Shown here: piece by piece, positions 48,064 to 63,078 of the stretch | Numbering within the stretch: the first letter of the stretch is position 1 | Layout of the letters: each line of letters begins with the position of its first letter | DNA from: Eremomyces bilateralis CBS 781.70 | Taxonomy: Eukaryota; Ascomycota; Dothideomycetes; Eremomycetales; Eremomycetaceae | DNA: 64,000 bases | Direction: 5' to 3' | Assembly (NCBI RefSeq): GCF_010015585.1 | Contig: NW_022985067.1 | Span: forward strand, 2,041,419-2,105,418 | The notes under the pieces: model-generated | What the model was told of the DNA's origin: nothing | Seen by the model: the letters and a program-made list of their open reading frames with translations, nothing else | The model's database searches: none | Translations under genes and position numbers: made by a program

Positions 48064-49527
48064 ATGGGTCCATCCTCCCCTAAGCAGTCCGCAAAGCCTG
48101 AACCAACAACGCAACTCTCGTCGTGGATTTCATCGGCGACTTTGAACGATATACCGGAAGAAATTCGGGTTCGTGCAAAACATCTGATCTTAGATGGCCT
48201 TGGATGCGGGCTCCTTGGTGCCCATCTGCCATCTTCTGAGAAAGCTGCTCGAGCTATCTTTGACCTAGAGCCTGTTGGCGACGCGACTGTGATTGGTTGG
48301 CCAGATAAAAAGCTCCCATCCCTTTCCGCAGCGCTTCTCAATAGCGCGTTCATTCAGGGCTTCGAGCTTGATGACTGGCACAGCGAAGCACCGATCCATT
48401 CCAACAGCATTCTGCTGCCTGCCTTGTTCGCTGCTGCCGAGCATGTAGTATCCAAAGATAACAAATCCTCGCTGGTTTCCGGATCCGATATTCTTCTTGC
48501 CACAATCATCGGATACGAGGTCGGCCCGCGTGTCGGCCTTGCGCTTCACGGTGCTCACGTTCTCACAACTGGATGGCACTCCGGCGCCGTCTTCGGGCCC
48601 GCAGTAGCAGCTTCCGCTGTTGGCAAACTGCTTGGTCTCACGCCCGAACAGATCGAAGATGCATTCGGGGTCGCGTGCACGCAAGCCTGCGGTTTAATGT
48701 CTGCACAGTTTGGAAGCGAAGTCAAGCGAATGCAGCATGGCTTTGCGGCCCGGAACGGCCTTCTCGCGGCATTCCTGGCCCAGGGTGGCTATATCGGGAT
48801 CAAGCGCGTGTTCGAGCAGGAATACGGCGGCTTCCTCAAACAGTTCAGCTCCGGCAACGGCATGGAACCTCAGTACCTGGTGGACGAACTGACCAAGGAT
48901 CTTGGTGTCAAGTGGCAGACTCAGGGCGTGCGCGTGAAACCGTACGCGTCTATGGCCGGCACTCATCCCACTATTGACTGTGTCCGCAAGCTGCAAGAGC
49001 TTTATCCGGAGCCGATGCAAAACTGGACCAGTGACATCGCAAAAATCACCATTGAGCTGGGCGAAGCGGCCTTTCATCACGGTGGCTGGAAAGCCATCCG
49101 CCCCCTCACAAGCACAGGGGCGCAGATGAGCAATGCCTACGTTGCTGCAACGCAGATTGTTTATGGGGAGGTGCTTGCGGCGCAATTCAGGCATGACATG
49201 CTGGAGAATGACAACCTTTGGAGGCTGGTCGATGTGACGGACTGTGTTTTGACAAAAGAAATAGGTGCTCCTCGTGGACGACAGACCGTCACGGTCGAAT
49301 TCAAAGACGGCACCGTGTTGAGGCAGCGTGTAGATTCGGCTCGAGGAGTCGAGCCCCCTCTGTCGAACCAGGAGATTATCGAAAAATGGAGACAGATCAC
49401 GAAAGACGTCATAGACATTGAGAGAGCCGAAAAGATTGAAAGGTTGGTTTTGGAGCTGGAAAAGTGCGATGATATCATGTTACTCCAGGGGCTGATGGGT
49501 GGATTGACAAAGAATCCGATAGCGTAA
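48064..49527 (+). CDS. MmgE/PrpD family enzyme, cis-aconitate decarboxylase-like
   Basis: Single-exon gene, 487 residues, the usual family length. The family holds 2-methylcitrate dehydratase (PrpD) and cis-aconitate decarboxylase (CadA/IRG1). Active-site segments are all present: ELDDWHSEAPIHS (Asp/His), TTGWHSGAVFGPA (His), VKRMQHGFAARNG (Lys/His) and YASMAGTHPTIDC (His). Segments such as ACTQACGLMSAQFG and GGFLKQFSSGNG resemble fungal CadA more than bacterial PrpD. Sequence alone does not separate decarboxylase from dehydratase. No mitochondrial presequence is obvious, so it is probably cytosolic. It is convergent with the Zn2Cys6 regulator (119 bp between stops) and is the left end of the 48-63 kb cluster. 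Confidence 0.9.
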   Translation: MGPSSPKQSAKPEPTTQLSSWISSATLNDIPEEIRVRAKHLILDGLGCGLLGAHLPSSEKAARAIFDLEPVGDATVIGWPDKKLPSLSAALLNSAFIQGFELDDWHSEAPIHSNSILLPALFAAAEHVVSKDNKSSLVSGSDILLATIIGYEVGPRVGLALHGAHVLTTGWHSGAVFGPAVAASAVGKLLGLTPEQIEDAFGVACTQACGLMSAQFGSEVKRMQHGFAARNGLLAAFLAQGGYIGIKRVFEQEYGGFLKQFSSGNGMEPQYLVDELTKDLGVKWQTQGVRVKPYASMAGTHPTIDCVRKLQELYPEPMQNWTSDIAKITIELGEAAFHHGGWKAIRPLTSTGAQMSNAYVAATQIVYGEVLAAQFRHDMLENDNLWRLVDVTDCVLTKEIGAPRGRQTVTVEFKDGTVLRQRVDSARGVEPPLSNQEIIEKWRQITKDVIDIERAEKIERLVLELEKCDDIMLLQGLMGGLTKNPIA

Positions 49528-49646
49528 TTAGTATAAATAATTCAATAATGATTATAGAATGACCATGCATAAAGGCGCTTTCGTGTGTAAGAAATCGAAT
49601 GTGGGTGCGACGTGGTTTTGAACTATATTCCTCAGATTTTGGTAGG

Positions 49647-59847: not shown

Positions 59848-60580
59848 GACTTGTTCTGCACTGTCGTTCAAGGAGTTTTACTGAAATGTATACGAGAATA
59901 TAAGCTTGCTTCGATATAGCATGGCGATGTTCGAGCTTCTTGCTTCAGGCACTCCACACGGGGTATTGATAGCTCCCTCGAAAATAACTCAGGTGCTTAT
60001 CCTAGAACAAAAATGCCGAACTAGAAGAATCCAAAGTCAATTCTATGCGACGATAGAACGTTGCCGATGCTCGCCGAACAGCCGCATGAACTTGGCGGCA
60101 AGATTGACGCCGACCGTGATTTATGGTACAAGGACGTGATCTAGAACGAATACTTTCTAAGCATTTTCAGAAATTGCGATAATTATCGATATTCAAGTCT
60201 GGTCTACGGATAGAGCCAAGGGATTCGCCGATGCCTTGGCCGACCCGCGCCGATTCGAGTCCCTTAGCGTCTCCGACTCTGACTTCCGTTCCGATCCCGA
60301 TCTGCACTTGCGCAATAGGCGTCATTTCGGGAAATAGTGCTGTCTGAAAATGAGGTGAACTGAGTAATGTCAAGTGGAGCTGGCAACATAAATCGAAAAG
60401 GCGTGACCAAAGGAACACATACAAGTACCCAGCGAAATCGGAAATGAACCCATTCTATGCTATTTGTTATCTTTTTGCTGTCGTCATCCCGAATGAAAAT
60501 CAATATGTCTGGATTAGTGAGTGAGAATCAAGATGACAGAGGGAGCCTGGTAGAGCTGCTCAAAGTCACTAGAGCAATCG
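59848..60580. promoter_or_regulatory. Divergent intergenic region, lyase and hydratase genes
   Basis: 733 bp between divergent starts. It may include the real 5' exon of the hydratase, as in-frame sequence upstream of 60581 contains alternative ATGs in other frames. No motif assigned. Confidence 0.4.
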
Positions 60581-63078
60581 ATGTCAAGGGTTTGTGCCTC
60601 CAAAAGCTCAAACGCCAAGCCCCGCTGCGGACTAATTGCAATAGGATTCCTATTGTCAGGAGATATTCTCTCACAAATCGAAAGCCTTTCAGAGCAGTTG
60701 AAGTTAGACCGACACGAGCGCGAGGCCGATGCATTGCAAGAAGTTCATCAGCACTGTACGACCAAAACAGACTTTGGAGGACTCGGCCTTGCAACAAATC
60801 ACCAGTTTAGTGATGCCGATGTTACTGAGGTCCTTTTCTTGGTGTCGGCATATCTGGAAGCCCTCAATTACCAAGACCGAAATTCATCTCCAGCACCAGC
60901 TCTAAATCAGCGTCCAGCTGGGCGTCGGGGCATGACTCTTGCCGAGAAGATATTTGCTGCCCATGATGTCTCTCGGAGAGGCGAAGTCAAACCAGGCGAC
61001 GTTATCCGTCTGGACGTCGATTGGATCATGGCAAGCGAGCTCTCATGGCATGCAATGGAAAAGACATACGAGTCACTCGGCAAACCGGGAATATTTCGCA
61101 ACGATAGGCTCTGGATAGCTGGCGATCATGTTGTGGACCCACGCGTGATGAACCATCCTCGGGTCAAGCCTCTGGTCGAGTCGAGCGAGAGGGCGAGAAA
61201 GGTTTTTAAACTGACAGAGTATCAAGGAATGAATTATACCATCATGCATACGGAGTTTTGCCGAGAGAGAGCACAGCCGGGAATGCTGATCATAGGATCC
61301 GACTCGCATACATGTTCTGCTGGAAGTGTATCGAGTCTCGCTATTGGTCTTGGTGTTGCTGATGTCACTCTCCCACTCGTGACAGGCGAGACGTGGATCA
61401 AGGTTCCGGAAACGGTTGAGATACGTTTTGTCAATAAACCACGGCCAGGCCTAGGGGGCAAAGATATTATCTTGTATATCCTGAAGGAGCTTAAAAGGAA
61501 CACTGTCGCAGCGCAAAGAGTAGTCGAGTATACTGGTCCAGGGTTGAAGCACCTCTCCTGCGATGCTCGATTCGCGTTCTGCAATATGACAACGGTAAGT
61601 TCGTCTAATCTTGAGCTTGAAAGGCGCCTAAAAGCAAGCAGGAGTTTGGCGGCATCACGGGCGTATGCGTTCCTGATGAGATTACCAAAGCATTCATCAA
61701 TAGAAGGAAGAACCCCAAGCACAAGAAGAACGCTCTGTACTATCAGCCTGACAAGGACGCACAATACGCCGAACGCTACACAATCGATCTCCATAAGGTC
61801 GAACCATTTGTCGCGCGTTACCCCAGCCCCGATGACGTTGTGCCCGTAAATGAGGTTGCAGGTACGACGTTGGATGGATGCTTCATAGGCGCCTGTACAA
61901 CTGCGCATGAAGACTTGGTCCTTGCAGCCCTAGTCCTCGAGGCCGGTTTGAACAGAGGCATGAGACCGGTGACGAATGGCAAACGGAAAGTCGTCCCCGG
62001 GTCTCGCCCGATACTCCATGACTTGAAGGTTCGAGGCTTGGCCGATGTATACAAGAGAGCTGGATTCGACATAGGGGTTCCGGGTTGCAGTTATTGCGTG
62101 GGAATGTCTGCAGACAAGGCTGAAGTGGGTGAGGTTTGGCTGAGTAGTCAAAACAGGAATTTTGAAAATCGAATGGGCCCTGGTTCGTTACGATTCCACA
62201 GGTATAGGACCATGCTTACAAAGTCCACAGGAGCAATTGGAAGTATCGCATCTGCAGTCACTGTTGCTGCAAGTAGCTTCAGCATGACGATAACGGACCC
62301 AACTTCCCTTCTTGATGATATTGACTTGACCCGCTTGGAGAAGATCTTGGGTACTAAGGCGGAAGAGAAATCTCCGCTTCGATATGTTGAACCGGCAGCC
62401 CAAGAAACGCGGCAAAGACCGATTACATATAGTGCTCCACCACTGGCAAGAGAAGGGACTATAGACTCACCTGTATCATCTCGCACCGATAGAGCCATAA
62501 TCGGCAAAGTCCAAACAATTGGCGACTTCATAGACACCGACGCACTAGCTCCCGCTGAGGCTTTGGTCAGCGCACAGACGGCCGAAGAATTTGGAGAGTA
62601 CTGCCTCTATCACACGCATCCCGACTTCCGGCGGCGGGTCAAGGAAGAGGGGCTTAACGTGGTCGTCGCTGGCAAGGGTTTTGGGGTCGGATCGTCACGG
62701 GAGAACGCCGTGACAGCATTGCTCGGAGCCGGCGTACAGTGCGTGATTGCACGGTCATTTGCATTCATCTATGCGCGAAACCAGCCGAACTTGGGCTTAT
62801 TGGGTATTGTAATCGAGGAGGAGGGGTTCTACAGCGTTGCCAAAGATGGAGCTGAAATCGAAATCGATGTTGCAAGGCGTGTTATCAAAGTTGGGGGCAG
62901 AGAGTTCGGATTCCAGATAAGTGAGCTGGAGATCCGGTTGTGGCAGCAAGGAGGGATGAGTGCATCGTTCGCCCGATGGGGAAGGGTAGTGCTGGAGAAG
63001 ATAACGACGGGAAGCCATGCTTTTGCGGGAGAAGGAACTTTGGAAAGATCTCAGCATGGTGAAGAGCTGAAATGGTAG
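60581..63078 (+). CDS. Aconitase-family hydratase, fused LeuC- and LeuD-like domains
   Basis: Exon 1 60581-61594, intron 61595-61641 (47 nt, ACG|GTAAGT...GCAG|GAG), exon 2 61642-63078; 816 residues. After an N-terminal extension of about 110 residues of unclear role comes a LeuC-like domain: MTLAEKIFAAHDVSRRGEV, DVDWIMASELSWHA, IIGSDSHTCSAGSVSSLAIG, FCNMTTEFGGITG, and the [4Fe-4S] ligands in CFIGACTTAHEDL and GCSYCVGMSADK. The swivelling LeuD-like domain is near the C-terminus: IGDFIDTDALAP and GKGFGVGSSRENAVTALLG, then ARSFAFIYARNQPNLGLL. Both halves fused resemble fungal isopropylmalate isomerase in layout, but motif details differ and the gene sits beside a lyase, so hydration/isomerisation of a different tricarboxylate or alkylmaleate is likelier. 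It is probably cytosolic. The exact start is uncertain. Confidence 0.86.

Follow-up and report, generated by a model that had tools for sequence, protein, structure and literature searches.

A six-gene set that may form a regulated catabolic island for a polycarboxylic acid was found in the ascomycete Eremomyces bilateralis CBS 781.70. The genes, A-F (Table 1), lie at positions 48064-63078 of a 64,000-nucleotide stretch (the window), which is part of a large contig in the 26.6-Mb genome. They belong to known families, with four enzymes accompanied by a regulator and a permease, and parts of the set are linked in other fungi and in bacteria. In the reading preferred here, an imported polycarboxylate would be oxidised, decarboxylated or isomerised, hydrated and cleaved without coenzyme A (CoA). 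We consider this an even call. Which reactions take place and in what sequence, on which substrate, in which direction the permease works and how the genes are regulated are all inferred. The enzyme families are known, while their combination in a fungus and its substrate appear uncharacterised. No account of this gene set was found in the open-licence literature, which is weak evidence of absence.

The set is probably not accidental, because relatives of A and F lie on contigs of equal length in other fungi and all four enzyme families occur together in five of 80 bacterial loci. An earlier reading of the window from sequence alone (the sequence-only reading) had made its case depend on co-occurrence elsewhere, and these two results, the fungal one among the matches listed, leave that case standing.

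Gene content of the locus

All six genes are intact, with open frames and GT-AG introns (reading-frame and splice modelling), and every domain is supported by Pfam. The adjacency, order and families given by the sequence-only reading are thereby confirmed. Two pairs stand head to head in the gene models, C and D 440 bases apart and E and F 657 bases apart. The model of gene D is confirmed by a deposited protein of the same strain (P0001), which it matches with 100% identity over the full length. The exons of gene F are 60505-60589, 60645-61594, 61642-62182 and 62231-63078; its in-frame intron of 48 nt at 62183-62230 corrects an earlier model. In gene C, the junction at 55806-55841 (a 36-nt intron) is tentative because the donor is weak.

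Table 1. The six genes of the cluster, with positions in the window
Gene	Product	Position	Strand	Length and introns	Family evidence
A	MmgE/PrpD-superfamily enzyme	48064..49527	+	487 aa, intronless	fold nearest cis-aconitate decarboxylase
B	Zn2Cys6 transcription factor	49647..52035	-	700 aa, 5 introns	PF00172 and PF04082 above cut-off
C	MFS permease	54446..56312	-	512 aa, 6 introns	PF07690
D	TcuA-type FAD dehydrogenase	56753..58465	+	511 aa, 3 introns	NF006130
E	ICL/PEP-mutase-superfamily (PEPM) lyase, KRCGH motif	58840..59847	-	313 aa, 1 intron	PF13714
F	Fused LeuC-LeuD aconitase-superfamily hydratase, N-terminal extension	60505..63078	+	807 aa	PF00330 and PF00694

The individual proteins

The flavoprotein D scores 452.5 bits on the equivalog model NF006130 (cut-off 369) and 230.6 bits on TIGR02485, below the cut-off of 372.55. 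The bacterial proteins of loci L072 (267.5) and L023 (237.2), described below, likewise fall short of TIGR02485. Gene D is 84% identical to a Trichoderma protein. With a TcuA-type dehydrogenase of this standing, a hydratase and a lyase together, the set is best explained as a module that breaks down a polycarboxylic acid, as had been proposed from the sequence alone.

Gene A is far from PrpD, with 29.9 bits on the prpD model TIGR02330 against a cut-off of 458. Its fold was predicted from 31 aligned sequences, after a single-sequence prediction (mean predicted local distance difference test, pLDDT, 35.1) had been discarded, and the nearest solved structure is cis-aconitate decarboxylase (CAD). 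In an alignment with human CAD, whose active-site residues we take to be Asp93, Thr97, His103, Lys207, Lys272 and His277, the positions of His103, Lys207 and Lys272 are kept as H112, K221 and K292, and these three are invariant across the 31 sequences. A probable PrpD is encoded elsewhere in the genome, on contig C30, where one 267-aa exon reaches 442.8 bits on TIGR02330 (the cut-off of 458 being for the whole protein). One relative of gene A, P0353 of Aspergillus terreus, carries an extra PF01161 domain and sits on a contig equal in length to that of an F relative; this may be a genuine fusion or an artefact of gene prediction.

The lyase E is 51.2% identical to oxaloacetate acetylhydrolase (OAH; 3lye), 50.5% to dimethylmalate lyase (DML; 3fa3) and 37.9% to PrpB (1mum), and it scores 208 bits on the prpB model TIGR02317, below the cut-off of 354.4. 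The label 'methylcitrate-like', which the sequence-only reading had given to the cluster, is therefore dropped: A is far from PrpD and nearest to CAD in fold, a probable PrpD exists on C30, and E is nearer to OAH and DML than to PrpB. At the position of a 3lye serine, presumably a marker of OAH, E has proline (IYPG against IFSF), as do DML 3fa3 and PrpB. The glutamate of VEHG, present in 3lye, 3fa3 and PrpB, is replaced by proline (VPGG), and the same proline occurs in a bacterial lyase adjoining LeuC in locus L059. E may have a specificity of its own.

Gene F keeps the three iron-sulfur cysteines, its GACTTAH and GCSYC motifs lining up with the cysteine positions in large subunits of known structure; the ligand roles of these cysteines in mAcn are described in the available part of one report (PMC8184944). 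A GSSRE serine was read by eye. When NCBIfam models were run on a 699-aa core translated through the 48-nt intron, the LeuD half reached 113.9 bits on TIGR02087 (cut-off 108.95) and the LeuC half 287.8 bits on NF001614, below the cut-off of 385. Ahead of the LeuC part lies an extension of about 120 aa (60505-60931; DFGGLGL ... EVLFLVSAYLEALNYQDR), which is conserved in eight aligned fungal relatives and gave no Pfam match when an 816-aa version of the protein was scanned. A third aconitase-like protein of A. fumigatus, AcoC, was barely expressed in the tested media, according to the accessible portion of the source (PMC3556520).

Gene B is a candidate regulator of the cluster, as its position suggests. 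Gene C scores best among NCBIfam models on TIGR00893, a subfamily of D-galactonate transporters (134.1 bits, under the cut-off of 395), and is a candidate importer of organic anions, with a presumed inward direction.

Recurrence in fungi

Fungal relatives of D, F and A were compared using the best 120 of 5395, 2088 and 2131 matches, respectively, with one longest contig per 90% protein cluster. Among the matches listed, relatives of A and F lie on contigs of equal length in ten cases, nine of them in named fungi and the tenth on a contig from a metagenome. Contigs of equal size were taken to be identical; where they run to megabases, this says less than adjacency would, and it is no proof of neighbourhood. 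In two species, the locus tags of the A and F relatives are 2 and 3 apart. Midpoint-rooted FastTree phylogenies of A (42 tips) and F (18 tips) both place three pairs within the clade that holds the protein from the window, with support of 0.97 and 0.99, respectively.

Recurrence in bacteria

Gene D by itself retrieved no relative in a prokaryote scan. When aligned relatives of D from fungi and bacteria served as the query, 572 matches were obtained, and the best 80 TcuA-like loci were inspected for the fungal protein families. MmgE was matched in 27 loci, PEPM in 15, LeuC in 9 and LeuD in 7. All four enzyme families occur within about 10 kb in five loci: L048, L072, L076, L097 and L100. Their proteins are 25-42% identical to the fungal ones; unlike gene F, the bacterial LeuC and LeuD are separate, and a tripartite tricarboxylate receptor gene is found in all five. 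The L072 genes run LeuC-LeuD-TcuA-PEPM, and MmgE follows about 2.3 kb further. As a background, eight host genomes (41.4 Mb), chosen for the neighbouring genes seen at their loci, gave at least 308 MmgE, 71 PEPM and 97 aconitase match rows, some rows being fragments of one gene. Scaled to the 1.35 Mb of the loci, about 10 MmgE, 2 PEPM and 3 aconitase matches would be expected. With bacterial queries, PrpF was matched in 12 of the 80 loci, a tripartite tricarboxylate receptor in 22 and MmgE in 26.

The two loci nearest to D among the 80 (L023 and L024, 52-54% identity) come from actinobacterial metagenome-assembled genomes. Both carry TcuA, a PrpF-family gene and a PEPM lyase in a row (L023:10001-13436, L024:7726-11162), so that TcuA is next but one to the lyase. 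They differ from the fungal cluster in having the PrpF-family gene (PF04303 in L023) instead of MmgE and LeuCD, and the L023 lyase scores above the prpB cut-off. This row is apparently an uncharacterised bacterial set. In the phylum of L023, strong TcuA relatives were found in 8 of 396 genomes, at ten loci, among them the L023 locus again (L104) and an Egibacter protein (L103). Eight of the ten gave no neighbour match above 60 bits within the 1.5-kb flanks. Longer stretches were inspected for two of the genomes, that of Egibacter and one other; in the latter, TcuA is about 4 kb away from a PEPM relative and about 8 kb away from a relative of MmgE. In the Egibacter locus (P0082), an MmgE-type gene lies 0.4 kb downstream of TcuA. 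In bacteria, then, these families are loosely associated with TcuA, and the full set is present only in a minority of loci.

Proposed pathway

The family assignments can be arranged into the following scheme. Gene C would import a small polycarboxylic acid, most likely tricarballylate, one of the aconitates or an alkylated relative, and B would turn the cluster on. The TcuA-type enzyme D would oxidise a CH-CH bond of the acid and so form an aconitate-type alkene, passing electrons to a presumed acceptor. The CAD-like enzyme A would then yield an itaconate- or citraconate-type product by decarboxylating or isomerising this alkene. The LeuCD-type enzyme F would add water to form a 2-alkylmalate- or isocitrate-type hydroxy acid, which E would cleave in a retro-aldol or Claisen-type reaction into an alpha-keto acid such as pyruvate and a carboxylate.

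Two routes through these steps can be drawn. The route from aconitate, supplied by D, through an itaconate- or citraconate-type acid to a 2-alkylmalate, which E would split into an alpha-keto acid and a carboxylate, would be favoured because it uses all four fungal enzymes. A route from aconitate to an isocitrate-type acid followed by PrpB-like cleavage would leave A without an obvious role. In its complete form, the CoA-free pathway would lead from tricarballylate or an alkyl relative to aconitate (D), itaconate or citraconate (A), a citramalate-type acid (F) and finally pyruvate with acetate or a longer carboxylate (E). We regard this full sequence of steps as clearly unlikely, and we know of no organism in which such a complete CoA-free pathway has been described.

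Several observations weigh against a single catabolic pathway built from the six genes. For the hydration step, we know of no precedent for a LeuCD enzyme acting on itaconate itself. No TcuB-like electron-transfer partner for D was found by Pfam among the six genes, to which that search was confined. At the CAD active site, Asp93 corresponds to glutamate in A, Thr97 falls in a gap and His277 is replaced by methionine. The genomic linkage also has gaps. Among 20 named species in both the A and F lists, 11 have the two genes on contigs of different size (names counted by reading), a discordance blurred in both directions because each 90% cluster is represented by a single longest contig. Gene D shares a contig size with A only in Eremomyces itself and in P. 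bovifimosum, among the matches listed. The five complete bacterial loci amount to three arrangements, since L048 and L072 are arranged alike, as are L097 and L100, and acid-catabolism genes generally cluster in Betaproteobacteria. With bacterial queries, 35 of the 80 loci held none of the six families searched. At the locus of the Egibacter protein, which at 57% identity is nearer to D than any of the 80 loci, a stretch of 19.5 kb gave no match above 60 bits to PrpF, PEPM or LeuCD. Finally, among proteins of known structure, A is closest by sequence to one from B. subtilis that goes by the name IRG1; the part of the source available treats its function as undetermined (PMC12290011).

Alternative explanations

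Another reading is of two modules lying side by side. A conserved A-F pair would do one job in many ascomycetes, while D, E and C would have been added between transposons, with no single linear pathway. P. bovifimosum supplies the only one of the ten A-F contig sizes that D also matches, among the matches listed; transposon-like sequence flanks the island; and many bacterial TcuA-like loci, that of Egibacter included, are without the full set. Separate modules would leave unaccounted for the five bacterial loci in which all four enzyme families occur together, the TcuA genes adjoining PrpF-family and PEPM genes in L023 and L024, and the close head-to-head placement of C with D and of E with F. 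We rate this arrangement as somewhat unlikely.

The resemblance of A by fold to fungal CAD-like proteins raises a different prospect, namely that the genes serve biosynthesis. They would then make an itaconate-like or alkylitaconate metabolite, A acting as the decarboxylase and C exporting the product. In A. niger, hadA (NRRL3_00504), which is similar to cis-aconitate decarboxylase, is reported as a hexylaconitate decarboxylase in the accessible text of the source (PMC7338620). In that text, the akc cluster is defined by fatty-acid synthase subunits and a citrate synthase, and both are absent from the six genes by Pfam. No mitochondrial carrier is present either, and no other frame of at least 120 aa resembles any of the three, which bears out what the sequence-only reading had said of their absence. 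A cleaving lyase and a dehydrogenase suit breakdown better, and a biosynthetic role is improbable. A second ending of the methylcitrate cycle is more improbable still. There, A would dehydrate methylcitrate, F would hydrate methylaconitate and E would cleave methylisocitrate. The same three superfamilies are indeed involved, and the L023 lyase above the prpB cut-off is near a TcuA-like gene. The methylcitrate-cycle role of A and E was nevertheless set aside on their low prpD and prpB scores and the probable PrpD on C30, and a methylcitrate synthase is absent from the six genes.

Comparison with known systems

The cluster shares elements with several known systems. In Eubacterium barkeri, the dimethylmaleate hydratase DmdAB and 2,3-dimethylmalate lyase belong to a bacterial fermentation pathway without TcuA or CAD; there, a LeuCD-type hydratase feeds a DML-type lyase, as predicted for F and E. 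The fungal itaconate genes cadA, mttA and mfsA and the alkylcitrate genes (akc, hadA) likewise bring together a CAD-like MmgE/PrpD enzyme, a transporter and a fungal regulator. The six-gene cluster differs from these in being without the carrier and the two synthases and in adding a dehydrogenase, a hydratase and a lyase. The tricarballylate operon tcuABC of Salmonella, as far as the available part of the source describes it (PMC10468695), also unites a TcuA-type FAD dehydrogenase and a transporter gene in one set; the fungal set has no TcuB-like quinone partner, its permease best matches other MFS models, and A, E and F are extra. Known itaconate degradation (ictA/ichA/ccl) proceeds through an itaconyl-CoA transferase, a hydratase and a citramalyl-CoA lyase, according to the portion of the source available (PMC6320622). 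That route also converts a C5 branched acid to pyruvate and a C2 unit, and none of its enzymes is among the six fungal genes.

A cluster of this kind would give fungi a dedicated route for tricarballylate- or aconitate-type acids. Such acids are released by plants and by mycotoxin breakdown. It would also suggest a function for large fungal protein families now called 'aconitase family', 'immune-responsive' and 'FAD binding domain-containing'. The four enzyme families further tie the fungal genes to bacterial loci that are likewise uncharacterised. If the complete CoA-free sequence of steps is true, fungi could degrade itaconate-type acids independently of CoA and of the Ict/Ich/Ccl route.

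Flanking sequence and minor observations

Transposon-like sequence lies on both sides of the island, with retroelement- or transposase-like remnants on the left; these calls come from reading the frames by eye rather than from a family search. Two near-identical stretches of about 170 bases, at about 39437 and 41777 (39437-41947), flank a frame with a CCHC-type zinc knuckle. By eye, this frame resembles a retroelement gag remnant, and reverse-transcriptase-like sequence continues to about 45 kb.

The 8-mer TTCGCCGA/TCGGCGAA occurs at 47803 (upstream of A), 56533 (between C and D) and 60224 (between E and F), with five copies in the whole window. Four 8-mers are common to at least three of the four upstream regions; our own rough estimate of the number to be expected is about one. 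The shared promoter motif TTCGCCGA was not used as evidence because it had been chosen after looking. At 8001-10000, the window contains a sharply AT-rich block, with a GC fraction of 0.279 against 0.44-0.54 in most other 2-kb blocks, which is perhaps the product of repeat-induced mutation or an old repeat.

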